Source: a virus
IMG/VR virus record: IMGVR_UViG_3300027736_000119
Coordinates: 1-35,897 of that record
DNA length: 35,897 nt
Direction: 5' to 3' (one strand)
How positions within the stretch are numbered: position 1 is the stretch's first letter; every line of letters starts with the position of its first letter. Made by a program: the position numbers and the translations under genes. Below the pieces are notes generated by a model. The model had not been told where the DNA came from, did no database searches, and was given only the letters and a program-made list of their open reading frames with translations. Positions 2,275-35,897 of the stretch are shown one piece after another.

Positions 2275-2486
2275 TTAAATGGAGTGGTACAATACTATGC
2301 TTAATTGGAATAGGATTAACTAGCTTCAATGTATATCCCCTTAATATATTATTTGGACTTATTGGATCAGGCTTGTGGACTTATGCTGGTATATTGCAGC
2401 GTGATCTACCTTTGATCCTGGTTGAAGTTGTGGCTGTAATCCTGTACTTCGCAGGAGTAGTCACCTATATAAACGTGAGGTTATGA
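2265..2486 (+). CDS. Small integral membrane protein (73 aa)
   Basis: Three hydrophobic segments are visible: around GTILCLIGIGLTSF, ILFGLIGSGLWTYAGIL and LILVEVVAVILYFAGVV. This suggests a three-pass inner-membrane protein. The ATG at 2265 is preferred because the protein then starts MQLIKWSG with the usual short charged N-terminus and overlaps the previous gene by 10 bases. An in-frame ATG at 2238 would add nine residues. Neither start has a strong Shine-Dalgarno sequence, so translation is probably coupled. No function can be assigned. Confidence 0.7.
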   Translation: MQLIKWSGTILCLIGIGLTSFNVYPLNILFGLIGSGLWTYAGILQRDLPLILVEVVAVILYFAGVVTYINVRL

Positions 2487-2487
2487 A

Positions 2488-2652
2488 ATGAGTTTAATGC
2501 AATTGCCTAAGGTAATCGATTCAGTCAACGAACTGGGTGCTAAGGTTGCTAAGTTAGAACTGATGGTCAAGGAATTACAAGATGCTTTTGTGATGGCTAC
2601 CCAGCAGACTATCGTTAAAGAAGTTGAGAAGCGTACTCCTAAATCTAAATGA
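2488..2652 (+). CDS. Small coiled-coil protein (54 aa)
   Basis: The frame starts two bases after the membrane-protein stop and ends overlapping the next start (ATGA at 2649). The middle has heptad-like hydrophobic spacing (VIDSVNELGAKVAKLELMV) and the C-terminus is basic (KRTPKSK), so a short coiled-coil or helical-bundle protein is likely. I do not recognise the family. Coupled overlaps with conserved neighbours support it as a gene despite its size. Confidence 0.6.
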   Translation: MSLMQLPKVIDSVNELGAKVAKLELMVKELQDAFVMATQQTIVKEVEKRTPKSK

Positions 2653-2870
2653 AAGATGCTATCGTCTTTGCAGCCCTACTGCTAGGACTTATGATAGGGT
2701 ATGCTGCTAATGAATACCGACACATGTTAGAACACATCGAGTGCAACAGTTATAACACCAGACATTCTTTATGGGTTGGTTATGTGGCGAAAGACGAGCA
2801 TGGACAGCTACGTTGCTTTTGGTTAGAGCAAGAGTTTCCTAATCGTATTAGACAAGGAGTACCAGTGTAG
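2649..2870 (+). CDS. N-terminally membrane-anchored small protein (73 aa)
   Basis: The protein opens with one hydrophobic segment (IVFAALLLGLMIGYA) after MKDA, followed by a soluble part rich in His, Tyr and Trp. The pattern fits a single-pass membrane anchor or uncleaved signal. The start overlaps the previous stop (ATGA). Its own stop (TAG, 2868-2870) shares a base with the GTG start of the polymerase gene. Function is unknown. It is the third consecutive small membrane or exported protein wedged between primase-helicase and polymerase. Confidence 0.65.
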   Translation: MKDAIVFAALLLGLMIGYAANEYRHMLEHIECNSYNTRHSLWVGYVAKDEHGQLRCFWLEQEFPNRIRQGVPV

Positions 2871-4666: not shown

Positions 4667-4815
4667 TGGATGAAATTAAACAAGCAGTACTTAAACTTCT
4701 AAGACAAGGTAATCATGTGTCTACTGTTAGAACACTGCTACGTGAAGCAGAGAAAGAACTAGATCAAGCACAGGAATACTTAGAAGCTATTAAAGATGCG
4801 GATTTTGCACCATGA
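4666..4815 (+). CDS. Small helical protein (49 aa)
   Basis: The ATG at 4666 overlaps the polymerase stop (TGATG) and is preceded by AAGGAAA at good spacing, so I prefer it to upstream in-frame starts that would lie inside the polymerase gene. The product looks fully helical and amphipathic (LLREAEKELDQAQEYLEAIKDA), possibly a coiled coil. The stop overlaps the next start (ATGA). Family unknown. Its place between polymerase and SSB suggests a replication accessory, but that rests on context alone. Confidence 0.65.
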   Translation: MDEIKQAVLKLLRQGNHVSTVRTLLREAEKELDQAQEYLEAIKDADFAP

Positions 4816-4994
4816 AAATTCAAGAGATTCCTGAGGGAGTAGAGCCGTTAGTTATCTTAGGGGACGACAATAGTTACTTGACTGTCTACACTTGTATGTC
4901 CAACGAAGATACTATCGAATTACTACGTCGATCCTTGCATGTTCTTGAACTAGAAAATGCAGGAGATGTAGATAAAAACTTGCATTTGCATTAA
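4812..4994 (+). CDS. Small protein of unknown function (60 aa)
   Basis: This 60-residue frame overlaps the previous gene by four bases and ends just before the SSB promoter. The sequence has a beta-like start (VEPLVILGDDNSYLTVYTC) followed by a helix (EDTIELLRRSLHVLELE). I do not recognise it. The gene's 3' end contains the -35 element of the downstream promoter. Confidence 0.65.
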   Translation: MKIQEIPEGVEPLVILGDDNSYLTVYTCMSNEDTIELLRRSLHVLELENAGDVDKNLHLH

Positions 4995-5008
4995 AAGTAG
5001 TGTATAAT
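4980..5008 (+). promoter_or_regulatory. Sigma70-type promoter for the SSB gene
   Basis: TTGCAT (4980-4985), a 17-base spacer and a perfect TATAAT (5003-5008). The start codon at 5038 follows a leader of about 25 bases carrying ACTAAGGAGAAA, a strong ribosome binding site. The leader closely resembles the start of the terminase-side transcript (see 31773-31809), down to a shared AGTTGT before ACTAAGGAG. A private promoter fits the need for large amounts of SSB. Confidence 0.7.
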
Positions 5009-5037
5009 ATATGTAGTTGTTTACTAAGGAGAAATAA

Positions 5038-5457
5038 ATGGAACAAGTAAAACCAGTACCAATTAAAGCCGATCTCTTCTGGGCTTCGTTAAATGAGAAG
5101 AACAAATATTCTGACAAGTTTCAGGTAGATCTTTGCAACCTATCCAAGGATGCTATCAAGACTTTGATGGACATGGGTATCAATGTAAAGAACGACGCTA
5201 AGAAACCTGACCAAGGCTTCTTCGTTACTGCTAAGAGCAAACTATATCCTATCCTCGCAGTAGATGAGAAGGGTAATCAGATCAATGTTAAGATTGCTAA
5301 CGGATCTAAAGGTGTAGCTTTAATTAAACCATACAACTACAATGTTGGTGGTAAGCAAGGTGTAGGAGTAGGCATTAGCAAGATCATCGTTAAAGATTTA
5401 ATCGAGTACAAACCTACTGGTGTTAACCTAGCAGACATCGAGGAAGAAGCTCTTTAA
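5038..5457 (+). CDS. Phage single-stranded DNA-binding protein
   Basis: A 139-aa protein with an OB-fold-like, lysine-rich and beta-rich body. It ends in a short acidic tail finished by a hydrophobic residue (ADIEEEAL), the hallmark of SSBs that recruit partner proteins, as in T7 gp2.5. It lies between polymerase and exonuclease, has its own promoter and has a strong AAGGAG. Role: coating single strands during replication and recombination. There is no strong primary-sequence motif beyond the tail, so the call rests on tail, size and position. The TAA overlaps the next ATG (TAATG). Confidence 0.75.
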   Translation: MEQVKPVPIKADLFWASLNEKNKYSDKFQVDLCNLSKDAIKTLMDMGINVKNDAKKPDQGFFVTAKSKLYPILAVDEKGNQINVKIANGSKGVALIKPYNYNVGGKQGVGVGISKIIVKDLIEYKPTGVNLADIEEEAL

Positions 5458-6200
5458 TGCACACTGCCCTGATTGATGGGGACATCTTAGTATATCGCAT
5501 TGGCTTTTCATCCGAAGAAGATGAGGAGTCAATAGCGATAGCTAGGTGTGGTGAGTTTCTAGAGAACTTGATTCTTTTCAATGGATTTGAGGACTACAAA
5601 GGATATCTTACAGGTGGTGGTAACTTCAGGAATGAAGTAGCAGTAACTGCTCCGTATAAAGGTAATCGTAAATCAGCTAAGCCAAAGCACTACGCTATAC
5701 TAAGACAGTATATGCAGCAGAGCTGGGGCTTTGAAATGATTGAAGGACAAGAAGCAGACGACGCTATTGGTATCGCAGCGTATGCACTAGAGCCTGGTGA
5801 GTATTGTATTTGTACAATTGATAAAGACTTAGACATGATTCGTGGTGATCACTTTAACTTTACTAAGGATCTCCGATATTATGTGACTGAGGAAGAAGGC
5901 ATCAGGAATTTTTATAAACAGATTTTAACTGGTGATAGGGTCGACAATGTTATTGGGCTTAAAGGCATTGGAGAAGTTAAAGCAGAAAGAATACTCAAAG
6001 AATGCAAAGACGAAAACGAAATGTATCTTGCTGTCCTGGAGGCTTACAAAGGCGACGAAGCAAGGGTGCTGGAGAACGGACAGTTGTTATGGATAAGAAG
6101 ACAGTCAAACGAAATCTGGAAACCTCCAAAGTTATCTACGTCCAGTGGGTCGACGCAGTTGCCGACGCAGGATGGGAAGACGAAGTCAAAGCAGAAATAG
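5457..6200 (+). CDS. 5'-3' exonuclease / flap nuclease (T7 gp6-like)
   Basis: A 247-aa PIN/FEN-family nuclease that would remove RNA primers and resect ends during replication. Visible signatures are the N-terminal DGDILVYR with an early metal-binding Asp, APYKGNRK, the acidic clusters GQEADDAIG and TIDKDLDMI, and a helix-three-turn-helix DNA-binding motif in VIGLKGIGEVKAERIL. The C-terminus reaches LLWIRRQSNEIWKPP, a normal end for the family, and then runs about 20 residues further through a region also used in another frame by the next gene. The start is coupled to the SSB stop (TAATG). Confidence 0.92.
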   Translation: MHTALIDGDILVYRIGFSSEEDEESIAIARCGEFLENLILFNGFEDYKGYLTGGGNFRNEVAVTAPYKGNRKSAKPKHYAILRQYMQQSWGFEMIEGQEADDAIGIAAYALEPGEYCICTIDKDLDMIRGDHFNFTKDLRYYVTEEEGIRNFYKQILTGDRVDNVIGLKGIGEVKAERILKECKDENEMYLAVLEAYKGDEARVLENGQLLWIRRQSNEIWKPPKLSTSSGSTQLPTQDGKTKSKQK

Positions 6201-6430
6201 ATCTTTGTCATACTGTAGGTTTTCTGATTAGTGAAACAAAAGATGCTTTATGTATTGCGTCCACAGTGTCTAAAGATAATAGTAACGCTAGGATACACAT
6301 ACCTAAGGCATGGATAAAGAAACGAAAGGTAATGAAGTTTGAAACCACAGTCAGCAAAAGCAAAAGGAAGAAAGCTACAGCAGTGGGTGAGAGATCAGAT
6401 ACTCCAACGATTCCCTACGCTGAGCACTGA
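6089..6430 (+). CDS. Conserved-looking phage protein (113 aa), overlaps the exonuclease gene
   Basis: The ATG at 6089 lies 112 bases inside the exonuclease gene in a different frame. The body has a beta-rich pattern (KVIYVQWVDAVADAGW, TVGFLISETKDALCIAS) and a basic end (IHIPKAWIKKRKV). I recall this general pattern from phage proteins found next to replication genes but cannot name a function. The last 30 residues are basic and low in structure, and they overlap the next gene by 92 bases in a third frame. The start could be a little further downstream, but the VQWVDAVADAGW block requires most of this frame. Confidence 0.75.
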   Translation: MDKKTVKRNLETSKVIYVQWVDAVADAGWEDEVKAEIDLCHTVGFLISETKDALCIASTVSKDNSNARIHIPKAWIKKRKVMKFETTVSKSKRKKATAVGERSDTPTIPYAEH

Positions 6431-6683
6431 TGATGTCAGAAGCACAAGCATGGGAGCGAGTGGAGAGGATGTTCAGCTTAGCTCGGCTGCTCGTAGTATT
6501 TTTCCTTTTCAGATTGAGTGCAAGAATCGTAAAGCTATTGCAGTTTTCAAAGATTATGAACAAGCTCAGACGCATGGATTAGTCGAGCCACTCGTAGTCT
6601 TGAAGCAGAATAATAGTAAGCCTCTTGTCTTAGTGGATGCTGAATACTTTATTGAATTAGTTAGGAAAGCAAATGGCAATTAA
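6339..6683 (+). CDS. PD-(D/E)XK-type phage endonuclease
   Basis: A 114-aa protein with the arrangement expected of small restriction-fold or resolvase nucleases. A basic helical N-terminus (KAKGRKLQQWVRDQILQRF) comes first, then DDVRSTSMGASGEDVQLS with a candidate metal-binding Asp, then FQIECKNR providing the E-x-K pair. It probably cuts branched or structured DNA during replication, recombination or packaging; the exact substrate is not visible. The only start that keeps the N-terminal helix is TTG at 6339, with AAAGGT eight bases upstream. It overlaps the previous gene by 92 bases and the next by 11. Confidence 0.78.
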   Translation: MKPQSAKAKGRKLQQWVRDQILQRFPTLSTDDVRSTSMGASGEDVQLSSAARSIFPFQIECKNRKAIAVFKDYEQAQTHGLVEPLVVLKQNNSKPLVLVDAEYFIELVRKANGN

Positions 6684-6792
6684 TATTAAAGAATGGAAGG
6701 TTATCGGAGATAAAGATAACTTCACTGTCCTTGGTATGGATGAACAAGGATGGATTTACTTTTGGAAGGACGCTAAATGGAACATCCTATAA
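6673..6792 (+). CDS. Very small protein (39 aa)
   Basis: A 39-codon frame from the ATG at 6673 to a TAA at 6790-6792, overlapping both neighbours. It reads like a single small beta domain (EWKVIGDKDNFTVLGMDEQ, then WIYFWKDAKW) and has no membrane segment. No family is recognised. The support is its coupling inside an operon with no gaps. Confidence 0.5.
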   Translation: MAINIKEWKVIGDKDNFTVLGMDEQGWIYFWKDAKWNIL

Positions 6793-7025
6793 ATAGATAT
6801 ACGTTTGAATTCGTAGAAGGTGATGAGACAGACGCACGTCATGGCTTTCCTTTTAATAAGGAACTCCGTCATGAGTTTAGTATCCCAGCAGATCAGACTT
6901 GGGATTTTGTGCTAAGAGAATTCCTAGCATTCTTGTCAAACATATATGGATATGAACTTAAAATAGAGGACTTTGATGCCGACTCATCTAATAATTCCAG
7001 ACTGTCAAGTGAAACCTGGTCATGA
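6777..7025 (+). CDS. Phage protein of unknown function (82 aa)
   Basis: A complete 82-residue frame, overlapping the previous gene by 16 bases and the phosphoesterase gene by 50. Features are an acidic-aromatic N-terminal half (YTFEFVEGDETDARHG) and a helical block rich in Phe and Leu (TWDFVLREFLAFLSNIYGY). Phages carry similar small proteins beside replication genes. I cannot assign a function. Confidence 0.72.
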   Translation: MEHPINRYTFEFVEGDETDARHGFPFNKELRHEFSIPADQTWDFVLREFLAFLSNIYGYELKIEDFDADSSNNSRLSSETWS

Positions 7026-7740
7026 TTATAATTACTTACGAGCGATAGGAAACTACATTGTTAAGAAGCGTCCTGATGTTATTGTTAATATTGGGGACTT
7101 TGCGGACATGCCTTCACTATCAAGCTATGATAAAGGAAAGAAGTCCTTCGAGGGTAGACGATATAAGCATGATGTAGCAGCAACACACGAAGCAATGGAC
7201 ATCTTATTAAAACCACTGCGTGACTTACAAGCAAGACAGCGGAGGAATAAAGATAAGGTATATAAACCACGAATGGTATTAACACTGGGTAATCACGAGC
7301 ATCGTATCAATCGTGCAGTTGAAAACGATTCGATGTTAGATGGTACTATTTCAATAGAGGACTTGAAGTATGCTGAAGCAGGTTGGGAAATTATTCCTTT
7401 TGAGCAGCCAGTTATTGTTGATGGTGTTTTATATGCCCATTATGTTACTGCAGGTGCTCTTAATCGCCCTGTTGGATCGGCAGCAGCCATTATCTCCAAG
7501 AAACACCAGTCGTGTGTTGTGGGTCATCAACAAGGTAGACAAGTTGCTTACGCTATTCGAGCAGATGGCAAAACGCTTACGGCTATAATTGCAGGGAGTT
7601 GTTATGAACACGACGAAGATTACATGGGGGCTCAAGGTAACCACTATTGGAGAGGTATTGTGGTCTTACACGAAGTTCATGATGGTTGCTTCGATGAGAT
7701 GTTTGTTTCCTTAGACTTTTTAAAGAAGAGGTATTTATGA
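6976..7740 (+). CDS. Calcineurin-like metallophosphoesterase
   Basis: A 254-aa enzyme of the binuclear-metal phosphoesterase superfamily. In order: the first metal-site motif IIPDCQVKPG (Asp9, with Gln11 where many members have His), the second NIGDFAD (Asp41), the third GNHEHR (Asn106, His107) and a late VVGHQQGRQ histidine site. The substrate could be a nucleotide, a nucleic-acid end or a phosphoprotein. The ATG at 6976 is preferred over a TTG three bases earlier, with AGAGGA upstream. It sits among nucleotide-metabolism genes (DUF3310, ribonucleotide reductase), which favours a nucleotide or nucleic-acid role, but this is inference. Confidence 0.88.
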   Translation: MPTHLIIPDCQVKPGHDYNYLRAIGNYIVKKRPDVIVNIGDFADMPSLSSYDKGKKSFEGRRYKHDVAATHEAMDILLKPLRDLQARQRRNKDKVYKPRMVLTLGNHEHRINRAVENDSMLDGTISIEDLKYAEAGWEIIPFEQPVIVDGVLYAHYVTAGALNRPVGSAAAIISKKHQSCVVGHQQGRQVAYAIRADGKTLTAIIAGSCYEHDEDYMGAQGNHYWRGIVVLHEVHDGCFDEMFVSLDFLKKRYL

Positions 7741-8048
7741 ATCCAATAGCAATGCCTAGACCCTACGGATACTCAGACAATTGTCCAGGTGAGTTGACAT
7801 TAGAAGAATACTTTCGTAGACTTCAAGTAGAAGAGCCTGAGTTAACTCCTAGGGATACACAGGTAGGAGGTAAACACTATCACAAGGGTAATGGCATACA
7901 ACCTTGGGATATTATAGAAGCTTGGGAGCTTGACTTTTGGGAGGGAAATGTGGTAAAATATATGCTACGTTGGAAACATAAAGACGGACTGCAGGACTTA
8001 CAGAAAGCGAGACATTACCTTGACTACATCATTAGTAAAAATTCTTAA
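7737..8048 (+). CDS. DUF3310 family protein (T7 gp1.7-related)
   Basis: A 103-aa protein with the hallmark block VGGKHYHKGNGIQPWDI, then GNVVKYMLRW, then DLQKARHYLDYI. This is the DUF3310 signature. The family includes T7 gp1.7, which has nucleoside-monophosphate kinase activity, so a role in dNTP supply is plausible. It overlaps the phosphoesterase gene by four bases. Its 3' half contains a promoter for the following genes. Confidence 0.85.
   Translation: MNPIAMPRPYGYSDNCPGELTLEEYFRRLQVEEPELTPRDTQVGGKHYHKGNGIQPWDIIEAWELDFWEGNVVKYMLRWKHKDGLQDLQKARHYLDYIISKNS
7930..7959 (+). promoter_or_regulatory. Candidate internal promoter before the ribonucleotide reductase segment
   Basis: TTGACT (7930-7935), an 18-base spacer and TAAAAT (7954-7959), with TGG just before the -10 box giving an extended -10. 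It lies inside the DUF3310 gene and would transcribe the 96-aa protein, the 58-aa protein and the ribonucleotide reductase. The elements are good but not perfect, and coding sequence can produce such matches by chance. Confidence 0.5.
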
Positions 8049-8082
8049 CGAATCACATAAATTTTTAGAGGAACAGAAACCA

Positions 8083-8373
8083 GTGAAGACAGTAAAATTT
8101 AATAAGTTTTTTCCAGACGATAATGCATTCGTAACAGTCGATGGACGTATGGATAAGGACGATGATTGGCAAGTTAGCGTAACCATTCAGGCTGATACCA
8201 AGAATGTAGTTAATTGGTGGTGCAGTGATTGGAACTACAAAGAATCTGTGGCACAGTTAAAAGCTTTTCAAGATGGTGCTCAGAAAGCTATCGACTTTAT
8301 CACAGCTTGTGCTGCTCAACCAGCCAAGGCAGCTAAAGCTAACGCTACTAAACGTGCTACTAAGAAAAAGTAA
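8083..8373 (+). CDS. Phage protein with Lys/Ala-rich tail (96 aa)
   Basis: The likely start is GTG at 8083, preceded by AGAGGA. A TTG at 8020 in the same frame would add 21 residues overlapping the DUF3310 gene. The body is acidic and aromatic (KFFPDDNAFVTVDGRMDKDD, NWWCSDWNYKE). It ends in a low-complexity Ala/Lys tail (AKAAKANATKRATKKK) that could bind nucleic acid or be disordered. Family unknown. It precedes a 58-aa helical protein and the ribonucleotide reductase. Confidence 0.72.
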   Translation: MKTVKFNKFFPDDNAFVTVDGRMDKDDDWQVSVTIQADTKNVVNWWCSDWNYKESVAQLKAFQDGAQKAIDFITACAAQPAKAAKANATKRATKKK

Positions 8374-8374
8374 A

Positions 8375-8551
8375 ATGAATCGTACTCTTACACTGCCAGA
8401 GTTAAAAGAACGGTTGAAGAGTTTAGACGAAGTAATGCTTCTGGAGCTGCTCGACATAGCTTCAGAAGATTTAGTAGAAACTTTTAGCGATACGATAGAA
8501 CATAACTATAACCGACTTCTAAAAGAAGTAGATTGGGAAGAAACTGAATGA
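8375..8551 (+). CDS. Small helical acidic protein (58 aa)
   Basis: The ATG at 8375 follows the previous TAA by one base, and the stop overlaps the reductase start (ATGA). The product is all helix by appearance (LPELKERLKSLDEVMLLELLDI) with an acidic C-terminus (VDWEETE). Small proteins of this form are common just before phage ribonucleotide reductase genes. No function is assigned. Confidence 0.7.
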   Translation: MNRTLTLPELKERLKSLDEVMLLELLDIASEDLVETFSDTIEHNYNRLLKEVDWEETE

Positions 8552-10455
8552 CAGAATTTAATACACCGTTTAGCACCGTAGGCTATATCACATACAAAAG
8601 GACATACGCTCGTCGATTGAACGAAGCAGATCCTGCTAGTCCTACAGAAGAGTTTGAAGACACAGTTAATCGTGTCGTAGCAGCGTCTAATGATCAGCTT
8701 CAGTGTGGCTTTACTGATGCTGAGAAGAAACGCTTACAGAAGTATCTGATGGAATTGAAGGGTACTGTAGCAGGTCGCTTCTTATGGCAGCTTGGTACTG
8801 AGACAGTAGGTCGCTTAGGTCTAGCTAGTCTACAGAACTGTGCCTTCACTGTGATAGACCATCCAGTACGTCCCTTTACATGGGCAATGGACTTATTAAT
8901 GTTAGGATCTGGAGTTGGATACAATATTCAAAGAGAGCATATACAAAAACTTCCTCCTGTTAACTCCAGCTTTGCTACTCCTACTCGTGTGGATAGTAAC
9001 GACGCTGACTTTATCGTTCCTGATTCTCGTGAGGGATGGGTTCAGTTGCTTGGTAAGACTCTTAAGGCAGCTTTCCTCAGCGATAGTAAAACTACTTTTA
9101 CGTATTCTACTATACTAGTACGAGGTAAAGGTTCTCCTATCAAGGGCTTTGGTGGTACTGCTTCAGGTGCTGAGGATTTATGTTGGGGTATTGCTAAGAT
9201 CAGTGAGATCTTGGAGAAGAGAGCAGGTAGACAGTTACGCTCTATTGACTGCCTCGACATCATGAATATTATCGGTGCAGTAGTAGTCGCTGGTAATGTA
9301 AGACGCTCTGCTCAGATTGCTATTGGTGATCCTGATGACGTTGAATACTTGCTGGCTAAACGGTGGGACATGGGTAACATCCCTTCGTGGAGAGCTATGT
9401 CTAATAACAGCGTAGTATGTAACGACTTCAAAGATCTACATGAGTATTTCTGGGATGGGTATGAAGGTAAGGGCGAACCTTATGGTTTAATAAACCTAAA
9501 GCTTAGCAGAAAGATTGGAAGACTGGGAGAGACTCAGTATCCTGACCCTAAGGTTATGGGTTACAATCCTTGTGCTGAGCAGTCCCTAGCTCCTTATGAG
9601 ACTTGTTGCTTAGCTGAGATATATCTATCGAATGTAACTAGTAAAGAAGAATTCGTAGACATCTGTAAGCTGCTGTATCGAATCAATAAGCATAGTCTCG
9701 CATTACCCTGCCATCTCGAAGAGACTGCAGATATTGTGCATAGTAATATGCGGATGGGCATCGGAGTTACTGGTGTCTTGCAAGCAAGTGATGAACAACG
9801 TAGCTGGTTATCTGAAGCTTATGAAGAGTTACGAGCTTTCGATAAAGAGTACAGTGCTAAGCATGGCTTTCCTGAGTCAGTAAAACTCACCACTGTTAAA
9901 CCTTCAGGTACTCTGTCGTTACTTCCAGGTGTAACTTCTGGTTGCCATCCTGCTTATTCTAGACACATGATTCGTAGGATTCGTATCGCAGCAGACCACG
10001 CTTTAGTACAAGTCTGTCGTGATCATGGATATCCTGTGGAGTATCAGCGTAACTTTGATGGTAGCGAAGATCACAGTACAATGGTAGTTAGCTTCCCATT
10101 CTGCTATCCAGAGGGAACAAAGCTTGCTGCTGAGATGACTGCGATTGATCAGTTAGAAGTTGTGAAATGGTTACAAGCTCATTGGTCAGACAATAGTGTT
10201 TCCTGTACAGTGTATTATCGTAAGGAAGAACTACCTGAGATTAAGAAGTACCTTGCTAAGAATTACAAGAACAACCACAAGTCCTTGTCTTTCCTGCTAC
10301 ACAATGAACATGGATTCCATCAAGCACCTCTAGAGGAGATTACTAAGGAGCAGTATGATGAGCTAGTCGCTAAGACTCGTTTGATTACTAAGGTTGATGA
10401 AGCAAACTTTGATGGAGGGGACGAGTGTGCCAGTGGTGCATGTCCAGTTAAATGA
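8548..10455 (+). CDS. nrdJ: Class II (adenosylcobalamin-dependent) ribonucleotide reductase
   Basis: A 635-aa enzyme converting ribonucleotides to deoxyribonucleotides for phage DNA synthesis. The chemistry is visible: Cys98 in LQNCAF, the active-site block NPCAEQ (Asn340, Cys342, Glu344), a second radical-loop Cys353 eleven residues later, and a redox-shuttle pair Cys627/Cys632 in CASGACPVK at the very end. These match Cys119, Cys408, Cys419, Cys731 and Cys736 of the monomeric Lactobacillus leichmannii enzyme, including the 11- and 5-residue spacings. No separate small (NrdB) subunit is present, as expected for class II. It needs host-derived B12. The start overlaps the previous stop (ATGA). 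It is about 100 residues shorter than the bacterial enzyme. Confidence 0.95.
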   Translation: MTEFNTPFSTVGYITYKRTYARRLNEADPASPTEEFEDTVNRVVAASNDQLQCGFTDAEKKRLQKYLMELKGTVAGRFLWQLGTETVGRLGLASLQNCAFTVIDHPVRPFTWAMDLLMLGSGVGYNIQREHIQKLPPVNSSFATPTRVDSNDADFIVPDSREGWVQLLGKTLKAAFLSDSKTTFTYSTILVRGKGSPIKGFGGTASGAEDLCWGIAKISEILEKRAGRQLRSIDCLDIMNIIGAVVVAGNVRRSAQIAIGDPDDVEYLLAKRWDMGNIPSWRAMSNNSVVCNDFKDLHEYFWDGYEGKGEPYGLINLKLSRKIGRLGETQYPDPKVMGYNPCAEQSLAPYETCCLAEIYLSNVTSKEEFVDICKLLYRINKHSLALPCHLEETADIVHSNMRMGIGVTGVLQASDEQRSWLSEAYEELRAFDKEYSAKHGFPESVKLTTVKPSGTLSLLPGVTSGCHPAYSRHMIRRIRIAADHALVQVCRDHGYPVEYQRNFDGSEDHSTMVVSFPFCYPEGTKLAAEMTAIDQLEVVKWLQAHWSDNSVSCTVYYRKEELPEIKKYLAKNYKNNHKSLSFLLHNEHGFHQAPLEEITKEQYDELVAKTRLITKVDEANFDGGDECASGACPVK

Positions 10456-23767: not shown

Positions 23768-25231
23768 TTAAAGAATTACCCAGCGAACACCTGAATTAAC
23801 TGTAACTGAGAAACCAGAACTAATAGTAATAGCCCCTACGGACATACCGTTATAAGTCATTGTAATATTCTCACCAATTGTTGAAGCATTATATGCGATT
23901 GCTTTTACTGCAGCAGAACCAAAGTATTGACCACCAGCTACCGTAGCAGTAGATACTGCAGTTACTAAACCTTTGCCGTTTACTGTGATTACTGGAATAG
24001 AACTAGAACTACCGAATGATCCAGTATTGCTATTAACTGTTGCTAAAGTACCTGCAGCAGTTACGTTAGAAGAACCATTAAAAGAAGGACTGGTGTAAGT
24101 TAAATCGCCACTAATGCTAATTGTACGACCAGTTGTTAGCGTTGCAGCAGAACCAGTTGTATTCTGATTTAATGTTGGTACATCAGCAGCAACTAATGCT
24201 CTAAATGTTGGAACACCTGAACTACCATTAGGAGAAGCTAAAACATAATTAGCAGTTTTAGACGCATATGGATTCTGTGTATCTCCATATCCAGAAGCTA
24301 AACTAATTGCAGGAGTACTGCCACCTGAAGAAGAAATAGGAGCAGTTCCTGTTACAGAAGTGACACCAGAAGCAGGAAGTGCAGATGAAGTCCAGCTAGT
24401 ACCATTACCAATAATAGCATAGTTGTTTGTAGGAGTTAACCCAGCAATCGTAGCTAGGTCAGCATCATAGGCTTGGACATTAGTACCAATTGCTAAACCT
24501 AGATTAGTACGAGCAGTAGCTGTATTTGTTAAGTCAGATAGGTTATTTGCTTTAGCTAAGAAAGATGAACCAGCAGCATAGGCATCAACCCATACAGAGC
24601 CAGTGTATACCTTCATTGATCCAAGAGAACTATTAAAGTATAATGCTCCAGCTACTAAGGCATTGCCATCGTTATCTAATGAAGGATCAGAAGTCTTAGA
24701 CCCTAAGTACCTATCATCAAAGTTATCGTATGCTGTTAAGGTTTGATCTCGTGCTGTCTCAGCAGCAGTCTGAGCATTAGCAGCGTTAGTCGCTGAAGTA
24801 GCTGCGTTGCTTGCAGAAGTACTTGCATTAGATGCAGACGTAGAAGCAGCAGAAGCTGAATTACTTGCGTTAGTTGCTGAAGTGCTTGCTGCGGAAGCTG
24901 AATTACTTGCGTTAGTTGCTGAAGTAGACGCAGCAGATGCTGAGTTAGAAGCATTTGTAGCGGATGTAGAAGCGTTGCTTGCAGATGTTGAAGCTGCACT
25001 TGCAGAGCTTGAAGCATTACTTGCTTGAGTGCTTGCAGTAGATGCACTGTTACTTGCATTAGTGGCAGATGTAGCAGCGTTTGTTGCTGAGGTCTGTGCT
25101 GCTGCCTGAGCTGTCTCAGCAGCTACTTCTGCAGCAATAGCAGCATCTTTAGCTTGCAGTGCTAATAAGACTTCACTAGAAGCGTCGCCTACAGCGTCAC
25201 CTGCTCCACCTGCACCACGATAAATAGCCAA
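23768..25231 (-). CDS. Long tail-fibre protein with Ala/Ser/Asn repeat shaft
   Basis: A 487-aa fibre. The N-terminus MAIYRGAGGAGDAVGD is probably the virion attachment site. Residues about 45-155 are an Ala-Ser-Asn-Thr repeat shaft that includes a 14-residue unit present three times (89-130). Next comes an AALYFNSS/MKVYTGSVW-type beta domain (about 190-225), a shaft, and a C-terminal block ending in VTVNSGVRWVIL, common at phage fibre ends. It is the first fibre gene after the capsid gene and is separated from it by a terminator, which should lower its expression relative to capsid. Confidence 0.92.
   Translation of the reverse strand: MAIYRGAGGAGDAVGDASSEVLLALQAKDAAIAAEVAAETAQAAAQTSATNAATSATNASNSASTASTQASNASSSASAASTSASNASTSATNASNSASAASTSATNASNSASAASTSATNASNSASAASTSASNASTSASNAATSATNAANAQTAAETARDQTLTAYDNFDDRYLGSKTSDPSLDNDGNALVAGALYFNSSLGSMKVYTGSVWVDAYAAGSSFLAKANNLSDLTNTATARTNLGLAIGTNVQAYDADLATIAGLTPTNNYAIIGNGTSWTSSALPASGVTSVTGTAPISSSGGSTPAISLASGYGDTQNPYASKTANYVLASPNGSSGVPTFRALVAADVPTLNQNTTGSAATLTTGRTISISGDLTYTSPSFNGSSNVTAAGTLATVNSNTGSFGSSSSIPVITVNGKGLVTAVSTATVAGGQYFGSAAVKAIAYNASTIGENITMTYNGMSVGAITISSGFSVTVNSGVRWVIL
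24842..24967 (-). repeat. Three 42-bp in-frame tandem repeats in the fibre shaft
   Basis: Within the fibre gene, a 42-base unit encoding TSATNASNSASAAS occurs three times in a row, with degenerate copies on both sides. The first two copies are almost identical in DNA and the third differs at several bases. Such repeats allow the shaft to grow or shrink by recombination. Confidence 0.88.
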
Positions 25232-31660: not shown

Positions 31661-31740
31661 TCTAAGCCTTTTCCTACGTAAGTAGAGACTAACATTTAAA
31701 AATTACTACTCTTCTAAGTTTACTTCTAAGTTAACTAAGT
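31648..31740 (-). repeat. ACTTAGAAG-type repeats before and at the terminase start
   Basis: On the minus strand ACTTAGAAG occurs at 31723-31731 and 31711-31719 (period 12) and again at 31648-31656, inside the first codons of the small terminase gene. A partial copy, ACTTAG, is at 31735-31740. The same core forms a 13-base triple repeat in the leader at 35584-35622. Meaning unknown: duplicated ribosome-binding-like sequence, protein site or leader element. Confidence 0.6.
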
Positions 31741-31772
31741 AGTTTTTATATTGTTTGTTTTTTATATTGTTA

Positions 31773-31809
31773 TTACTTAGGAGCTAACATAGCGTTTTTT
31801 CTCCTTAGT
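31773..31809 (-). promoter_or_regulatory. 5' leader hairpin with a five-codon open frame
   Basis: The minus-strand transcript should begin near 31809. Its first bases, ACTAAGGAG (31801-31809), can pair with CTCCTAAGT (31775-31783): eight of nine pairs across a 17-base loop. The 5' arm contains AAGGAG, followed by ATG at 31790 and the codons for MLAPK, then tandem TAA stops. The hairpin may stabilise the message, or the short frame may be a leader peptide or the remnant of a lost gene. Confidence 0.5.
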
Positions 31810-31815
31810 ACAACT

Positions 31816-31844
31816 ATTATACCATACTTATGAGAATTTGTCAA
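31816..31844 (-). promoter_or_regulatory. Consensus late promoter for the packaging genes
   Basis: On the minus strand: perfect TTGACA (31839-31844), a 17-base spacer and a perfect TATAAT (31816-31821) with TGG before it. It drives small and large terminase and probably the portal through a leader of about 150 bases. It shares the core TATGGTATAAT with the two other minus-strand promoters. Confidence 0.93.
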
Positions 31845-32024: not shown

Positions 32025-32166
32025 TACTAACTCATTGATTTATATAGTATTCCTTATCTGTTGTCTTCTGTCGTTAACTTCAGCTAATATGCCTAATTAT
32101 TAAGCACTTCTTAATTCTACTTTTTAGGTGTTTCAGAGGGTTCTGATTATAAATATAACACACCAA

Positions 32167-32178
32167 CCCCCCTCCCCC
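32167..32178. other. C-rich tract (G-rich on minus strand)
   Basis: CCCCCCTCCCCC, preceded by CCAA, stands out sharply in an AT-rich region. The complementary strand reads GGGGGAGGGGGG followed by TTGG, which could form an unusual G-rich structure or act as a protein site. Confidence 0.7.
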
Positions 32179-32332: not shown

Positions 32333-32362
32333 TTGACATTCTGAGAATTGATCCGTTATAGT
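32333..32362 (+). promoter_or_regulatory. Promoter of the early module
   Basis: Perfect TTGACA (32333-32338), an 18-base spacer and TATAGT (32357-32362). The transcript should start near 32369. The first gene has AAAGGAG at the right distance from the ATG at 32393. Confidence 0.85.
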
Positions 32363-32392: not shown

Positions 32393-32488
32393 ATGAGCCA
32401 ATCAGATAAACTAATAAGCCTATTCAATACAGGGTTATTGCTATCAAGCTTTACATTCTTATTAATCTATGTATCATTCTATCTATAA
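32393..32488 (+). CDS. 31-aa single-pass membrane peptide
   Basis: MSQSDKLISLFNTG followed by one strongly hydrophobic segment (LLLSSFTFLLIYVSFYL) to the stop. AAAGGAG lies eight bases before the ATG and the gene is the first after the early promoter. An in-frame ATG at 32369 is near the predicted transcript start but has no ribosome binding site. Tiny membrane peptides in early phage modules may alter the host membrane or block superinfection; here that is a guess. Confidence 0.62.
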   Translation: MSQSDKLISLFNTGLLLSSFTFLLIYVSFYL

Positions 32489-32503
32489 ATGGAGGGTTTA
32501 AAA

Positions 32504-33145
32504 ATGATCAAACTAAGCAAAACAAGTAAACTAGATGGAATTTTATCTTGGTCTCTTCAAGCTTTAGAGACATGTCCCGCAAGTAAGAATAAGGATGGGT
32601 CTCTAGTACCCGCTTGCCAAGGTTGCTACGCTACCACAGGTAATTACAGGTTTTCCAATGTAAGAAAGCCTAGAGAATTTAATAAGGAGGATTGGAAAAG
32701 GGACGATTGGGTTAGTGACATGGTAAAAGCTTTAGACTCTAGCAGGTATTTTAGATGGTTTGATAGTGGCGATATGTATGATCTAAGCTTAGCCAATAAA
32801 ATCTTAGCAGTAATGAAAGCTACTCCATGGTGTAAGCATTGGCTACCTACTCGCATGCATAAGTTTATTAAATTTCAGCATACCATTGACGCTATGATGT
32901 CTCTAGATAACGTAGTGGTACGATTCTCTAGCGATAGTGTTACAGGTGAGATCGTCAACGGACAAACTACTAGCACAATTTTTAGCGATACAGTACCCAA
33001 AGGGGCTCTAGAGTGCAAAGCTTATGAGCATGAAGGTAAATGCTCAGGATGTCGGGCTTGCTATGATAAGGACGTGAAAGTAATAGCGTATAAAGCTCAT
33101 GGAGTTAAGATGGCTAAAGTAATTAAAATTATTGCAACTAAATAG
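32504..33145 (+). CDS. GP88-like cysteine-motif phage protein
   Basis: A 213-aa protein with the pattern of the phage gene-product-88 family: an opening like LSKTSK, TCPAS (Cys24), then CQGCYATTG (Cys38, Cys41) and a C-terminal cluster KCSGCRACYDK. A conserved-looking middle RWFDSGDMYDLSLANKILAV carries Asp/Gly residues suggestive of a TIM-barrel-like enzyme. Clustered cysteines imply metal or iron-sulphur binding. Function is unknown to me. The ATG at 32504 follows GGAGGG at ideal spacing; an ATG at 32489 would contain that site. Confidence 0.82.
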   Translation: MIKLSKTSKLDGILSWSLQALETCPASKNKDGSLVPACQGCYATTGNYRFSNVRKPREFNKEDWKRDDWVSDMVKALDSSRYFRWFDSGDMYDLSLANKILAVMKATPWCKHWLPTRMHKFIKFQHTIDAMMSLDNVVVRFSSDSVTGEIVNGQTTSTIFSDTVPKGALECKAYEHEGKCSGCRACYDKDVKVIAYKAHGVKMAKVIKIIATK

Positions 33146-33157
33146 GAGGGATTACTT

Positions 33158-33580
33158 GTGGAATATGTGAATAAAATAGCCCATGTAAAAGGTGAGGATC
33201 GTAATTGTTGTGCCTTGAATGCTACTGCTTTGACCATGGATATACCCTATTATGATGTCTATAAGGTCTATAAGGCATTCGGGAGGGTACATGGTAGGGG
33301 ATGCTCTACCCTTATGATGTCGTGCTCTATCAATTGGCTAATGAATGCCGAGAAGGATTACAATATAGAGAATGAGGAGGATGTCATTAAAGTAAGGGGC
33401 AATTGGAGGATGCCTACTTATCTCAATATGACATTAGAAAAGTTTGCTAAATTATTCCCTAAAGGTAGATATATTGTGGTAAAATCTAATCATGCTCTAG
33501 CGTTAATTGATGGGGTATGGTACGATAACCATGAGCCAAACCCAAGGGCACGAGTAAAACATTTTTATAGGATAGCTTAA
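33158..33580 (+). CDS. Papain-like cysteine peptidase candidate (140 aa)
   Basis: The order of motifs fits a small C39/papain-fold peptidase: a nucleophile region GEDRNCCALNATAL (Cys17 or Cys18 at the start of a helix), a long middle with GRVHGRGCS, and a late KSNHALALIDGVWYDN supplying His112 and Asp123 (or Asn124) as catalytic partners. The GTG start has AGGAGG eight bases upstream. Phages carry related small proteins with C...H...D order and unknown targets. In an early module it could cleave or bind a host protein. Activity is inferred from residue order only. Confidence 0.68.
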   Translation: MEYVNKIAHVKGEDRNCCALNATALTMDIPYYDVYKVYKAFGRVHGRGCSTLMMSCSINWLMNAEKDYNIENEEDVIKVRGNWRMPTYLNMTLEKFAKLFPKGRYIVVKSNHALALIDGVWYDNHEPNPRARVKHFYRIA

Positions 33581-33581
33581 C

Positions 33582-33842
33582 ATGAATATAGACGATAACG
33601 AATTGAATGAGATTAAAGCATACGTTAGAGGTTTGATTGAGGGAATTAAAGACACTCATAAACCCGAAGAGGTAGACATTATCTTAGAAGACTATTGGAA
33701 TGCTTGGGATGGTACAATAGATATTAATATCTGGATTGATGAGACAGATCCTAAGCGATACTTATGTACGCTATATCGTATAAGCGAATCAGGGTATACT
33801 GATATGGAGACATACCAACGATTAGATTACTTGAGAGGATAA
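33582..33842 (+). CDS. Acidic early protein (86 aa)
   Basis: An acidic protein with a helical first half (DDNELNEIKAYVRGLIEGIK) and a beta-like second half with Trp (WNAWDGTIDINIWIDETD). It starts one base after the previous stop. No family is recognised. It is the first of several acidic proteins in this module. Confidence 0.72.
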   Translation: MNIDDNELNEIKAYVRGLIEGIKDTHKPEEVDIILEDYWNAWDGTIDINIWIDETDPKRYLCTLYRISESGYTDMETYQRLDYLRG

Positions 33843-33843
33843 T

Positions 33844-34029
33844 ATGTTTACATATGAAGAAAGAGTTTACTTGTGGCAGGGAGTGCTGTATAATCAGGAG
33901 GATACTAAGAAAGGATTAGATAACCCTTACTTGGAGGAAGACGTAAGAAAAGGATTGGAGAAGAAGCTTGCTGTATTAAATAATTTAGAGGATGTATTAA
34001 TTTTTAACGGAGGAAGAAATGAGAATTAA
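33844..34029 (+). CDS. Small helical early protein (61 aa)
   Basis: Mostly helical and charged (TYEERVYLWQGVLYNQEDTK, VRKGLEKKLAVLNNLEDVL). It has GAGAGGATA upstream and overlaps the next gene by 11 bases. Resembles small coiled-coil proteins, possibly dimeric. No known family. Confidence 0.68.
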   Translation: MFTYEERVYLWQGVLYNQEDTKKGLDNPYLEEDVRKGLEKKLAVLNNLEDVLIFNGGRNEN

Positions 34030-34237
34030 AGACCCTGTATTAGTATCTAAACAAGTCACTTCTATTTATGAGGTTGATGTCGAGGGAAAGAAGATCGAAG
34101 TATCTTATTGGTACAACATGGACGATGAGGGCAAGGGAGGATGGGACTGGGATTTATCACCTTGCTATGAGGGATTGACCGAAGAAGAAATCCAAGAACT
34201 TGATGATGAGTTTGAAGAAGTTATTTCTAATTTATAG
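34019..34237 (+). CDS. Acidic early protein (72 aa)
   Basis: Beta-like start (VLVSKQVTSIYEVDVEGKKI), Trp- and Gly-rich centre (DEGKGGWDWDLSP) and a strongly acidic C-terminus (GLTEEEIQELDDEFEEVI). GGAGGAAG lies before the ATG. A high negative charge in a small early protein is seen in DNA mimics and other host-interaction proteins, but no family is recognised. Confidence 0.7.
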   Translation: MRIKDPVLVSKQVTSIYEVDVEGKKIEVSYWYNMDDEGKGGWDWDLSPCYEGLTEEEIQELDDEFEEVISNL

Positions 34238-34246
34238 GAGAATGAA

Positions 34247-34432
34247 ATGCCAATATATAGCGGAGTAATGATTAGAAAACAGTATTTTGAAATTGAAGTT
34301 GAGGCTGATAACGAAGATCAGGCAAGAGATTTAATCATGGATGCAGAGATTAAAAACGATTCTTATGAAACTGATTGGGAATTTTTCGAAGGAAGCGTTA
34401 CAGAAGTTGTGACTGACATTGAAAAAACTTAA
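34247..34432 (+). CDS. Acidic DpnD/PcfM-like small protein (61 aa)
   Basis: The layout of strand, strand, helix (KQYFEIEVEADNEDQARDLI) followed by an acidic beta part (EFFEGSVTEVVTDIEKT) resembles small proteins in which a short beta hairpin leads into a helix with DNEDQA. The resemblance to DpnD/PcfM-like domains is loose. Net charge is clearly negative. TAGGAG precedes the ATG. Confidence 0.65.
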   Translation: MPIYSGVMIRKQYFEIEVEADNEDQARDLIMDAEIKNDSYETDWEFFEGSVTEVVTDIEKT

Positions 34433-34444
34433 CTGGAGATTAAA

Positions 34445-34606
34445 ATGACTGAATGCTCGACGTGTAGTTGTGAGTTTAGTTTAGAAGATGAGGGAGGTAT
34501 TGCTGGGAATTTTGGTATACTACCAGTAGCTTTTTGCCCTACTTGTTTGTCTTCTGTCTTCGATATGGTAGAGCAATTAAAAGGGTATGATGATGGGGAA
34601 GCTTAA
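34445..34606 (+). CDS. Small zinc-finger-like early protein (53 aa)
   Basis: Two cysteine pairs, CSTC near the start and CPTC in the middle, separated by 23 residues, suggest a single zinc finger or ribbon. It ends in an acidic helix (VEQLKGYDDGEA). The ATG at 34445 follows a CTGGAG. A small zinc protein in an early module could bind host RNA polymerase or DNA, but this is unproven. Confidence 0.65.
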   Translation: MTECSTCSCEFSLEDEGGIAGNFGILPVAFCPTCLSSVFDMVEQLKGYDDGEA

Positions 34607-34631
34607 ACAATTATTAATTGAGGAGGAGTAT

Positions 34632-34916
34632 ATGAATAGATACGATAGCGGATACTATAACGATAAGTATTACGAGCCAGAGGATGAGGACTTCGATGAG
34701 GAAGTAATTGAGGAGAGAATCCATAACATGGTAGAAGACCCTGAGGGACAATTCTATTGGAAGGATGATGCACAATGGTATGAAGGATTATCTGAGACAG
34801 GCTATATAGGTACTGAATTCGAGGAGATTCCATTTAATCTAGCACCTCAGGAAGTAAAGGATAAAGTCCTAAACTATTGGAGGGATGTTGCTAGAGGCTA
34901 TGCCGATGGAGATTGA
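34632..34916 (+). CDS. Very acidic, tyrosine-rich early protein (94 aa)
   Basis: The ATG at 34632 follows the strong site GAGGAGGAG. In-frame starts at 34587 and after are possible but overlap the previous gene. The first part, RYDSGYYNDKYYEPEDEDFD, is extremely acidic and Tyr-rich. It continues with EEVIEERIHNMVEDPEG, and then a more ordered part with Trp. The charge pattern is that of a DNA mimic or a protein that binds a basic partner. It is a good candidate host-takeover factor. No family is recognised. Confidence 0.7.
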   Translation: MNRYDSGYYNDKYYEPEDEDFDEEVIEERIHNMVEDPEGQFYWKDDAQWYEGLSETGYIGTEFEEIPFNLAPQEVKDKVLNYWRDVARGYADGD

Positions 34917-34980
34917 TTACAAAGATATTATTATATTGATTTGGGTATGCTTAACTTACTACGTTGGAAGGGACTTATGA
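34906..34980 (+). CDS. Possible 24-aa membrane peptide
   Basis: MEIDYKDIIILIWVCLTYYV plus GRDL: an acidic start and one hydrophobic segment. AGAGG lies eight bases upstream, and the stop overlaps the next ATG as ATGA, the standard coupling in this module. An ATG at 34900 in the same frame is also possible. Very short, so only moderately sure. Confidence 0.42.
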   Translation: MEIDYKDIIILIWVCLTYYVGRDL

Positions 34981-35102
34981 TAGATAACGAAGACAAGTAC
35001 ATTAAATATATTTTATGGTTTGCACTTGCTTACTTTGGTGGTCATGTGTTATACTATATCGGATTAGAATTATCTTGTTACTTATACGGAGTACTACAAT
35101 GA
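34977..35102 (+). CDS. 41-aa membrane protein
   Basis: GAAGGGA precedes the ATG at 34977. After MIDNEDKYIK comes a hydrophobic stretch (YILWFALAYFGGHVLYYIGL) and a second short one. Its ends are coupled by ATGA to the neighbours on both sides. Function unknown. Confidence 0.6.
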   Translation: MIDNEDKYIKYILWFALAYFGGHVLYYIGLELSCYLYGVLQ

Positions 35103-35290
35103 GAAAGCTATATAAGATTTTAGACTATGATGGTTCAGTTGTTAGAATATTTGGTTATAAAGAGGAGGCTGAGAGATTCCTAAGACTAGATAAAAGCTTT
35201 AAGATTCAAGTACTTATGATGGAGAAGAAGAAAACAGTTGACAATAAATTTAATTGGGCTTATAAAATTTTAGGAGATGCACTAATATGA
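35099..35290 (+). CDS. Small early protein (63 aa)
   Basis: The ATG at 35099 overlaps the previous stop (ATGA). The protein has a beta-hairpin-like start (RKLYKILDYDGSVVRIFGYK) followed by helix (EEAERFLRLDKSFK) and a basic turn. Strand and helix order resembles small phage proteins sometimes seen in early modules. The 3' part contains a consensus promoter. A longer in-frame reading from 35015 would run through the previous membrane-protein gene and is not supported. Confidence 0.68.
   Translation: MRKLYKILDYDGSVVRIFGYKEEAERFLRLDKSFKIQVLMMEKKKTVDNKFNWAYKILGDALI
35238..35266 (+). promoter_or_regulatory. Consensus internal promoter
   Basis: Perfect TTGACA (35238-35243), a 17-base spacer and TATAAA (35261-35266), inside the preceding gene. 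It would drive the zinc-ribbon gene at 35287 and add to downstream transcription. The predicted start leaves only a short leader that begins near TAGGAG. Confidence 0.72.
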
Positions 35291-35526
35291 GATGCTATTG
35301 CTGTAATAAAATGTTGTCTGATTTTGAAGCCACTCGTAAGAGTGTACATACAAACGAATACTTAGACATGTGTAATAAATGTTACGCTACTATAAGTGAT
35401 GACTTACTAACATACGAAAGAACAGACTTGTATGATGAAGACGAAGACTACGAAGAGGAAGATTTAGACCACAATGAGTACGATTCTTTTAGTCGGATGG
35501 ATAATAGGGTTGACAACGATTACTAA
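35287..35526 (+). CDS. Zinc-ribbon protein with acidic tail (79 aa)
   Basis: Starts MRCYCCNKMLSDFEATRKSV with a CYCC pair (a CxxC spacing is present) and a second pair in MCNKCYATI, giving a four-cysteine zinc ribbon over residues 3-33. The second half is strongly acidic (YDEDEDYEEEDLDHNEYD). Coupled by ATGA. Zinc ribbon plus acidic tail suits a protein that binds host RNA polymerase or a nucleic-acid enzyme, but this is inferred from architecture only. Confidence 0.72.
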   Translation: MRCYCCNKMLSDFEATRKSVHTNEYLDMCNKCYATISDDLLTYERTDLYDEDEDYEEEDLDHNEYDSFSRMDNRVDNDY

Positions 35527-35538
35527 GCATGCTATACT
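35510..35538 (+). promoter_or_regulatory. Strong promoter of the replication arm
   Basis: Perfect TTGACA (35510-35515), a 17-base spacer and TATACT (35533-35538) with TGC directly before it (extended -10). Its -35 lies in the end of the previous gene. Transcription from here would cross the circle junction into the replication operon at position 1, so it is the main promoter for the plus-strand arm. Confidence 0.9.
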
Positions 35539-35583
35539 ATATACTTAATAGTATTTATATAGTAAGTATTTTATATAGTATGT

Positions 35584-35622
35584 ACTTAGGAGTTAAACTT
35601 AGAAGATAAACTTAGGAGTAAA
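35584..35622 (+). repeat. Three tandem 13-base leader repeats carrying ribosome-binding cores
   Basis: ACTTAGGAGTTAA, ACTTAGAAGATAA and ACTTAGGAGTAAA follow one another without a gap, and the ATG at 35625 is two bases after. The last copy is a proper ribosome binding site (AGGAG, six bases from the ATG); the earlier two look like duplicates. They sit in the leader of the strong promoter at 35510-35538. Confidence 0.85.
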
Positions 35623-35624
35623 CT

Positions 35625-35789
35625 ATGGAAGATAACTACGAAGAAGAAATGCATTACCACTTTGCAATACAAAACATGATTGATTGTGCAGGTCGCTATG
35701 GTATCGATGTAGTCTTACAAGATATCGTTGATGCCTGGAACTTTAAACTAAAGCAACACGATACTACTGCGGAGTTCAGCTATGAATAA
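35625..35789 (+). CDS. Unknown 54-aa acidic protein (complete copy)
   Basis: Begins MEDNYEEEMHYHFAIQNMID and ends AEFSYE. It is helical and acidic with no membrane segment. It is the first gene after the strong promoter and the triple repeat. The last 45 codons are also present at the left end of the window, with Val28 here and Thr there. The next gene starts eight bases before its stop. Function unknown. Confidence 0.8.
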   Translation: MEDNYEEEMHYHFAIQNMIDCAGRYGIDVVLQDIVDAWNFKLKQHDTTAEFSYE

Positions 35790-35897
35790 ACTAGTCGATG
35801 AAGCACCTTATCATCCAGGATATGAGGATGCAGTGGTAACTCCTGCTACTAAATACATTGGAATGAATCCTTCTAAGATGATATGGAAAACTAAACC
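35652..35897. repeat. Right copy of imperfect terminal redundancy
   Basis: Matches 1-246 at 242 of 246 bases. It contains the end of the 54-aa gene and the first 39 codons of the 70-aa gene, so joining the ends gives uninterrupted frames. Confidence 0.93.
35782..35897 (+). CDS. 5' part of the 70-aa unknown gene (right copy)
   Basis: Same start and first 39 codons as the gene at 131-343, cut by the window end. No difference in sequence over the shared part. It marks the place where the circular map continues into position 247. Confidence 0.8.
   Translation, partial: MNKLVDEAPYHPGYEDAVVTPATKYIGMNPSKMIWKTK

Follow-up and report, generated by a model that had tools for sequence, protein, structure and literature searches.

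The window analysed here is the whole 35,897-nt stretch of IMG/VR virus record IMGVR_UViG_3300027736_000119 (positions 1 to 35,897), and the subject of this study is the cluster of small plus-strand genes at 32393-35526, which a first-pass annotation had described as an early-type island and a candidate host-takeover or anti-defence module. The window is a single, circularly closed viral contig. Its bases 35652-35897 repeat bases 1-246 almost exactly, with a few mismatches; this end repeat is a circular assembly overlap of slightly different strains and not a true terminal repeat. The cluster, called the leader below, forms the front of the plus-strand replication arm. Thirteen small genes lie inside 32393-35526, and through the wrap the operon continues past 35526, via a 14th gene (o54) just beyond that boundary, into the primase at 506. 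The cluster itself was thus correctly recognized, but its end had been placed too early and two gene starts needed correction: for the open reading frame (ORF) listed at 34587 the most likely start is 34632, and for GP88 it is 32504, where a good ribosome-binding site is present.

Genes, promoters and candidate genome end of the leader

The leader genes are tightly packed, as had been claimed, with intergenic gaps of 1-25 nt, three 4-nt ATGA overlaps (at 34977, 35099, and 35287), and two 11-nt overlaps (at 34019 and 34906). In a selection test against up to 12 related loci, the pooled ratio of nonsynonymous to synonymous changes (pN/pS) was 0.07-0.49 for each cluster ORF having relatives, a sign of purifying selection and therefore of real proteins. 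The sole cluster gene outside this comparison was g61, which has no diverged relative. The accessory genes with relatives retain good ribosome-binding sites. ORF n26 (35529-35609), with a pN/pS of 0.79, was rejected as a gene; it overlies a promoter. The features are collected in Table 1.

Table 1. Features of the leader and of the ORF-free region ahead of it (positions in the window; aa, amino acids)
Feature	Position	Strand	Evidence and distribution
Bipartite element, CTTTTTAGGTGTTTCAGAGG - 28-30 nt - CCCCCTCCCCC (CCCCCC T CCCCC); candidate genome terminus or packaging site	32120-32178		ORF-free region
Leader promoter, sigma70-type, TTGACA-18-TATAGT	32333-32362	+	11/12 match; TATAGT promoter at same place in 17/41 leaders
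a31, 31-aa single-helix membrane peptide	32393-32488	+	kept in 9 relatives; pN/pS 0.49
GP88 (PF17338), 213 aa, seven-cysteine putative Fe-S protein; core	32504-33145	+	Pfam E = 2.9e-27
PEP, 140 aa, phrog_3754, putative papain-like cysteine peptidase, GTG start	33158-33580	+	phrog_3754 E = 9e-16; pN/pS 0.125; 35/68 leaders
d86, acidic accessory protein	33582-33842	+	10 leaders; pN/pS 0.07
e61, accessory protein	33844-34029	+	14 leaders; pN/pS 0.36
f72, strongly acidic accessory protein, net charge -14	34019-34237	+	6 leaders; pN/pS 0.22 (single comparison)
g61, strongly acidic accessory protein, net charge -12	34247-34432	+	window and one near-identical contig only
h53, CxxC...CxxC zinc-type accessory protein	34445-34606	+	11 leaders; pN/pS 0.33
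i94, core acidic protein, net charge -19, N-terminal GYYNDxYYEPEDxDFDE motif	34632-34916	+	33/68 leaders; pN/pS 0.14
j24, tiny membrane peptide	34906-34980	+	9 relatives; pN/pS 0.22
k41, 41-aa membrane peptide	34977-35102	+	32/68 leaders; pN/pS 0.17
l63, basic core protein	35099-35290	+	62/68 leaders; pN/pS 0.25
m79, core zinc-type protein (CxxC-x22-CxxC), acidic tail	35287-35526	+	66/68 leaders; pN/pS 0.20
Second promoter, sigma70-type, TTGACA-17-TATACT, ahead of o54 and replication genes	35510-35538	+	11/12 match; after m79 in 32/41 leaders
o54, core acidic protein adjoining primase operon	35625-35789	+	64/68 leaders; pN/pS 0.18

The strongly acidic character noted for several products was confirmed by comparison with the rest of the genome. 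The isoelectric point was below 4.5 in 8 of the 14 leader proteins compared with 5 of 38 elsewhere, and the median net charge per 100 aa was -10.6 in the leader versus -1.2 elsewhere (Mann-Whitney p = 0.004; p = 0.0025 against other small proteins). This density was -20 for i94 and g61 and -19 for f72 and m79. The tiny membrane peptides (a31, j24, and k41) and the cysteine-pair zinc-type proteins (m79 and h53) on the earlier list were also found.

The TTGACA promoter that had been reported ahead of the cluster is present, and a second sigma70-type promoter stands at the m79 tail. In relatives, the leader promoter has the form TTGACA-16/18-TATAGT, in some cases with TTGACT, and the post-m79 promoter has the form TTGACA-17-TATACT, in a few cases with one change or a spacer of 18. 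The promoter scan by itself was not above chance (20 found versus 17.4 +/- 4.1 in shuffles); it is the recurrence of the two sites in relatives (Table 1) that carries information. A further promoter, at 31816-31844 on the minus strand, serves the late arm and is a perfect extended -10 sigma70 site (TTGACA-17-TATAAT, 12/12); a possible five-codon mini-ORF (MLAPK) lies downstream of it. An AT-rich element of about 54 bp, consisting of tandem TTTATAT(A/T)GT repeats and ACTTAGGAG, occurs near the late-arm promoter (31734-31787) and again downstream of the m79 promoter (approximately 35543-35596). The two copies are 78-83% alike, the element is also present in relatives, and it is a candidate regulator site common to both arms.

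Ahead of the gene cluster lies an ORF-free region of 730 bp that contains the bipartite element. Both blocks of the element, with unchanged spacing, were present in nearly all relatives containing this region. Of the 34 leader contigs, 10 have an end that lies upstream of the C tract at a distance of 0-75 bp, including one with a variant tract that was counted by eye (L087). A 38,352-bp contig begins at the C tract and stops shortly past the terminase genes, and a second contig, of 37,800 bp, is opened there too. The late-arm side of 15 relatives can be aligned only as far as 32142-32144. Because the contig ends and the stop of the late-arm homology coincide at the bipartite element, a physical genome end probably lies at about 32143, which would make the gene cluster the entry end, and the element is a candidate terminase cut site or start of a terminal repeat. 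In cultivated cobaviruses, the two arms are separated by an ORF-free gap that contains the terminal repeats, whose 5' end is conserved and G+C-rich (PMC6775973).

The remainder of the genome is arranged in two arms. The plus-strand arm (506-10455) encodes a primase-helicase, a family A DNA polymerase, an exonuclease, a RusA-like resolvase, and a B12-dependent ribonucleotide reductase (RNR), and the minus-strand arm (10760-31660) encodes tail, lysis, capsid, portal, and terminase proteins. A scan of long proteins revealed no RNA polymerase, a result consistent with transcription by the host. The DNA polymerase is nearest to those of Pelagibacter and Roseobacter podophages (40-48% identity), and no DNA-level match to the right half of the window was found in the phage collection searched. 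With its two arms, family A polymerase, primase-helicase, and B12-type RNR, and with no phage RNA polymerase among the long proteins scanned, the genome appears, by gene content and layout, to be a Zobellviridae-like podophage on the cobavirus plan, in which the left arms carry modules for replication and nucleotide metabolism (PMC6775973). In the tail fibre gene (23768-25231), tandem 21/42-bp repeats at 24783-25024 encode an alanine/glutamate/leucine-rich repeat.

Core genes and variable slots across related leaders

With m79 as the query, relatives were detected on 516 viral contigs. Of these, 80 were kept, and 68 leaders, including that of the window, were compared. Their ORFs fall into 177 families, almost all without known function. 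A small core recurs: m79, o54, and l63 are present in nearly all leaders, GP88 or DUF7227 in 58, and PEP, i94, and k41 each in about half (Table 1); several of the leaders without GP88 or DUF7227 are truncated contigs. Outside this core, turnover is high. Ninety of the 177 families were seen once, the median family length is 61 aa, and ten close relatives have 37 families in total, only six of which are common to all ten. Among the accessory genes of the window, d86, e61, f72, and h53 recur in 6-14 leaders and g61 is private. As insertion sites between the accessory genes, repeats gave only weak two-copy matches.

Among 135 family representatives, Pfam named only 13 families and PADLOC two, marginally; PADLOC on the window and variable proteins gave only homing-endonuclease and marginal matches. 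Two kinds of gene in the variable slots of relatives are more informative. A DNA methyltransferase (phrog_757, E = 3.9e-69) occurs in 11 leaders and in each of them immediately precedes l63 or the place where l63 would stand. In the distant relative MW202796 (Manatee Spring phage), an ArdC-type antirestriction gene (ArdC-N plus MPTase-PolyVal) follows GP88 in the place of PEP, and an m79 homologue and the primase lie further on; its product is a metallopeptidase rather than a cysteine peptidase, has no sequence relation to PEP, and is absent from the window. The presence of these two genes among the variable genes fits a takeover or counter-defence role, and the suggestion of such a module is plausible and strengthened by the comparison of leaders.

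Further families were observed in these leaders. A 108-aa protein (MEALTLKEQ...LNLYNT; L002:5662-5988 and homologues) lies between GP88 and PEP in most close relatives and is missing from the window, and a separate 89-aa family, present in 37 leaders, shares the C-terminal LNL(W/Y)NT with it. Small acidic proteins of family 13 (L061:2791-3021, L041:6550-6735, and others), with the pattern YxVxxxxxxYYxxEIEAxxxxEA, occur in 14 leaders and resemble g61; family 13 and g61 are possibly one adaptor-like fold.

GP88 and the putative peptidase PEP

The protein described as GP88-like is a true member of PF17338 (96.5 bits compared with a gathering cut-off of 24.4). Cysteines C24, C41, C171, C180, C183, and C186 are invariant across 42 sequences, DUF7227 included, which suggests two metal or Fe-S sites. 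The AlphaFold2 (AF2) model of GP88 has a predicted local confidence score (pLDDT) of 77. In BFVD it matches GP88/DUF7227 proteins best (E down to 1e-12), some of them from archaeal viruses. Against solved structures, only non-significant TIM-barrel matches were obtained, among them the radical-SAM enzyme BtrN (E 0.057, probability 0.60) and NifB (probability 0.44), and weak, non-significant matches to phage Fe-S oxidoreductases were also seen. The canonical radical-SAM motif CxxxCxxC is absent from GP88, which instead has C-x13-C-x2-C plus C171...C180xxC183xxC186; the description radical-SAM-like is therefore hypothetical. In the literature, no report linking DUF5131 with radical SAM was found. 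The window protein shares its cysteine pattern and model fold with DUF7227 (PF23872); both families are of uncharacterised function, and no significant match to a solved structure was obtained. DUF7227 stands in for GP88 in the same slot in about nine leaders (e.g., L058:632-1309), where the two distantly related families exchange.

The cysteine-peptidase candidate of the first-pass annotation was strengthened by its alignment. In PEP, C18, H112, and D123, in papain-like Cys-His-Asp order, are invariant in 20 sequences, down to 30% identity, and PEP is putatively a papain-like cysteine peptidase. No match to a peptidase family or a solved peptidase was found in Pfam, NCBIfam, or PDB profiles, and Pfam at a relaxed E-value with the 20 sequences returned scattered chance matches only; PDB profile searches with GP88, PEP, m79, and i94 likewise gave no meaningful match. 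The phrog_3754 proteins of PAK_P1-like and Otagovirus Pseudomonas phages, one of which is annotated 'putative peptidase', are similar to PEP over the full length and have the same C-H-D order, but identity is 22-29% and they are located in other small-gene clusters without GP88. No relative of PEP was confirmed among bacterial and archaeal genomes, and its function therefore cannot be read from a homologue carried by a host.

Interpretation of the leader

Early leaders are where phages keep host-shutdown and counter-defence proteins. We consider it rather probable that this gene cluster forms the leader transcription unit at the left end of a Zobellviridae-like podophage genome and is a functional counterpart of the T7-type first region, encoding small host-preparing proteins. 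We infer early expression from position and host-type promoters, both of which support the earlier label of early type. In this model, the leader end would enter the cell first and host sigma70 RNA polymerase would read from 32333 at once, about fourteen small leader proteins would prepare the cell before the replication genes, and the latter would then be read from the second promoter at 35510. The stable core (GP88, m79, l63, and o54, joined in this subgroup by PEP, i94, a31, and k41) would serve needs of every host. GP88 may be an Fe-S enzyme, possibly radical-SAM-like, PEP may be a cysteine protease that acts inside the cell and cleaves a host or regulatory protein, and m79 may be a zinc protein whose acidic tail couples to replication; together, the core enzymes and the membrane and zinc proteins would alter the host. 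The variable slots, here d86, e61, f72, g61, and h53, would hold interchangeable host-specific inhibitors, some of them probably countering restriction or other defences.

Several observations weigh against this interpretation. For none of the window proteins has a role in takeover or anti-defence been demonstrated or assigned through its family, and m79, l63, and o54 adjoin the primase and could simply be replication accessories. Promoter type is no proof of early timing, since the late arm has a sigma70 site at 31844 that is just as perfect. Terminal direct repeats were not found in the two 38-kb relatives, and contig ends are indirect evidence of physical ends; short-read assembly often collapses terminal repeats.

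One alternative is that the leader is mainly replication support; GP88, m79, l63, and o54 would then aid the primase-helicase or the supply of nucleotides, and the variable genes would have only minor modifying effects. In its favour, m79 and the genes around it cannot be separated from the primase operon, an arrangement that also holds for the OM43 phage MEP402 and for MW202796. The promoter at the m79 tail is conserved, and cobavirus left arms consist of replication and nucleotide metabolism modules (PMC6775973). However, it leaves unexplained why gene turnover is so high and why small membrane peptides, a protease, and, in the slots, a methyltransferase and an ArdC-type gene are present, and we regard it as unlikely. 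The same turnover, with more than half of the families seen once, would also be expected if the variable ORFs were transient, largely functionless ORFans in a recombination-prone genome end, and the sharp homology break in the adjoining ORF-free region and the rejection of n26 as a gene point the same way. Accessory genes with relatives are nevertheless under strong purifying selection (d86 0.07, f72 0.22, h53 0.33, and e61 0.36) and keep their ribosome-binding sites, which makes this explanation improbable.

The first-pass annotation had further raised the possibility of DNA mimicry of the T7 Ocr type, by which one or more of the acidic proteins (i94, f72, g61, or the m79 tail) would block restriction or other DNA-binding defences. 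Of the 116 aa of Ocr, 34 are acidic and 6 are basic (PMC4872106), and the protein is described as blocking restriction and BREX (PMC7261183). The charge density of i94, f72, g61, and m79 is close to that of Ocr, and minimal i94 relatives, consisting of the motif and an acidic tail alone, are nearly pure acidic peptides. Among the acidic proteins, AF2 modelling covered i94; the model, built from 10 homologues, is of low confidence and largely disordered (pLDDT 58, with the acidic N-terminus below 50), so a structure search with it was not worthwhile, and a DNA-mimic fold of i94 is not supported. The conserved part of i94 is the short, tyrosine-rich N-terminal motif, which resembles a site for binding more than a surface shaped like DNA. 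In Pfam, PHROGs, and PADLOC, no window protein matched a known antirestriction or anti-CRISPR family, Ocr and ArdA included, and the single PADLOC match among window proteins (E = 0.008) was at chance level. Mimicry therefore seems to have little chance of being correct, and the support for counter-defence comes from the relatives rather than from matches of the window proteins themselves.

A more specific form of the host-preparing leader was also considered, in which GP88, PEP, and the disordered i94 would together make up a conserved and so far undescribed takeover set. A new family of Fe-S enzymes, probably radical-SAM-like, would act with a dedicated early cysteine protease that cleaves a host regulator (for example, RNA polymerase or a defence protein), and the slots would serve as a counter-defence reservoir. 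This proposal is tentative and we doubt it more than we believe it; if true, large numbers of almost wholly uncharacterised counter-defence proteins would be findable by their place between GP88 and m79.

Like the T7 class I early region, the leader has small genes at the probable entry end, host-type promoters ahead of the replication genes, and several strongly acidic products. Unlike T7, the window has no Ocr homologue and no phage RNA polymerase among the proteins scanned, and it has a conserved core of GP88, peptidase, and zinc protein in a two-arm genome with divergent transcription. Cobaviruses and other Zobellviridae (CRP-4, ICBM1, and MEP401/402) are alike in the two arms, family A polymerase, primase-helicase, B12-type RNR, and ORF-free inter-arm gap; GP88 is the first gene in CRP-4, and an m79 relative stands ahead of the primase in MEP402. 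Their polymerase identity to the window is below 50%, however, the small genes of the leader are otherwise not common to them, and the freshwater-type clade of the window is known from metagenomes only. The nearest isolates identified have marine OM43 and Roseobacter bacteria as hosts.

Variable early genes at a genome end are a familiar kind of region, and what this one contains is nearly all undescribed. The slot is bounded by fixed landmarks (the bipartite end element, GP88, and m79) in at least 68 leaders that were compared, and m79 as a marker occurs on 516 contigs in all. From these landmarks comes a workable set of about 170 small protein families, most of them unknown, that could be screened for activity against defences or against bacteria. 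The comparison also brings to attention two conserved putative enzymes without assigned function, GP88 and PEP.

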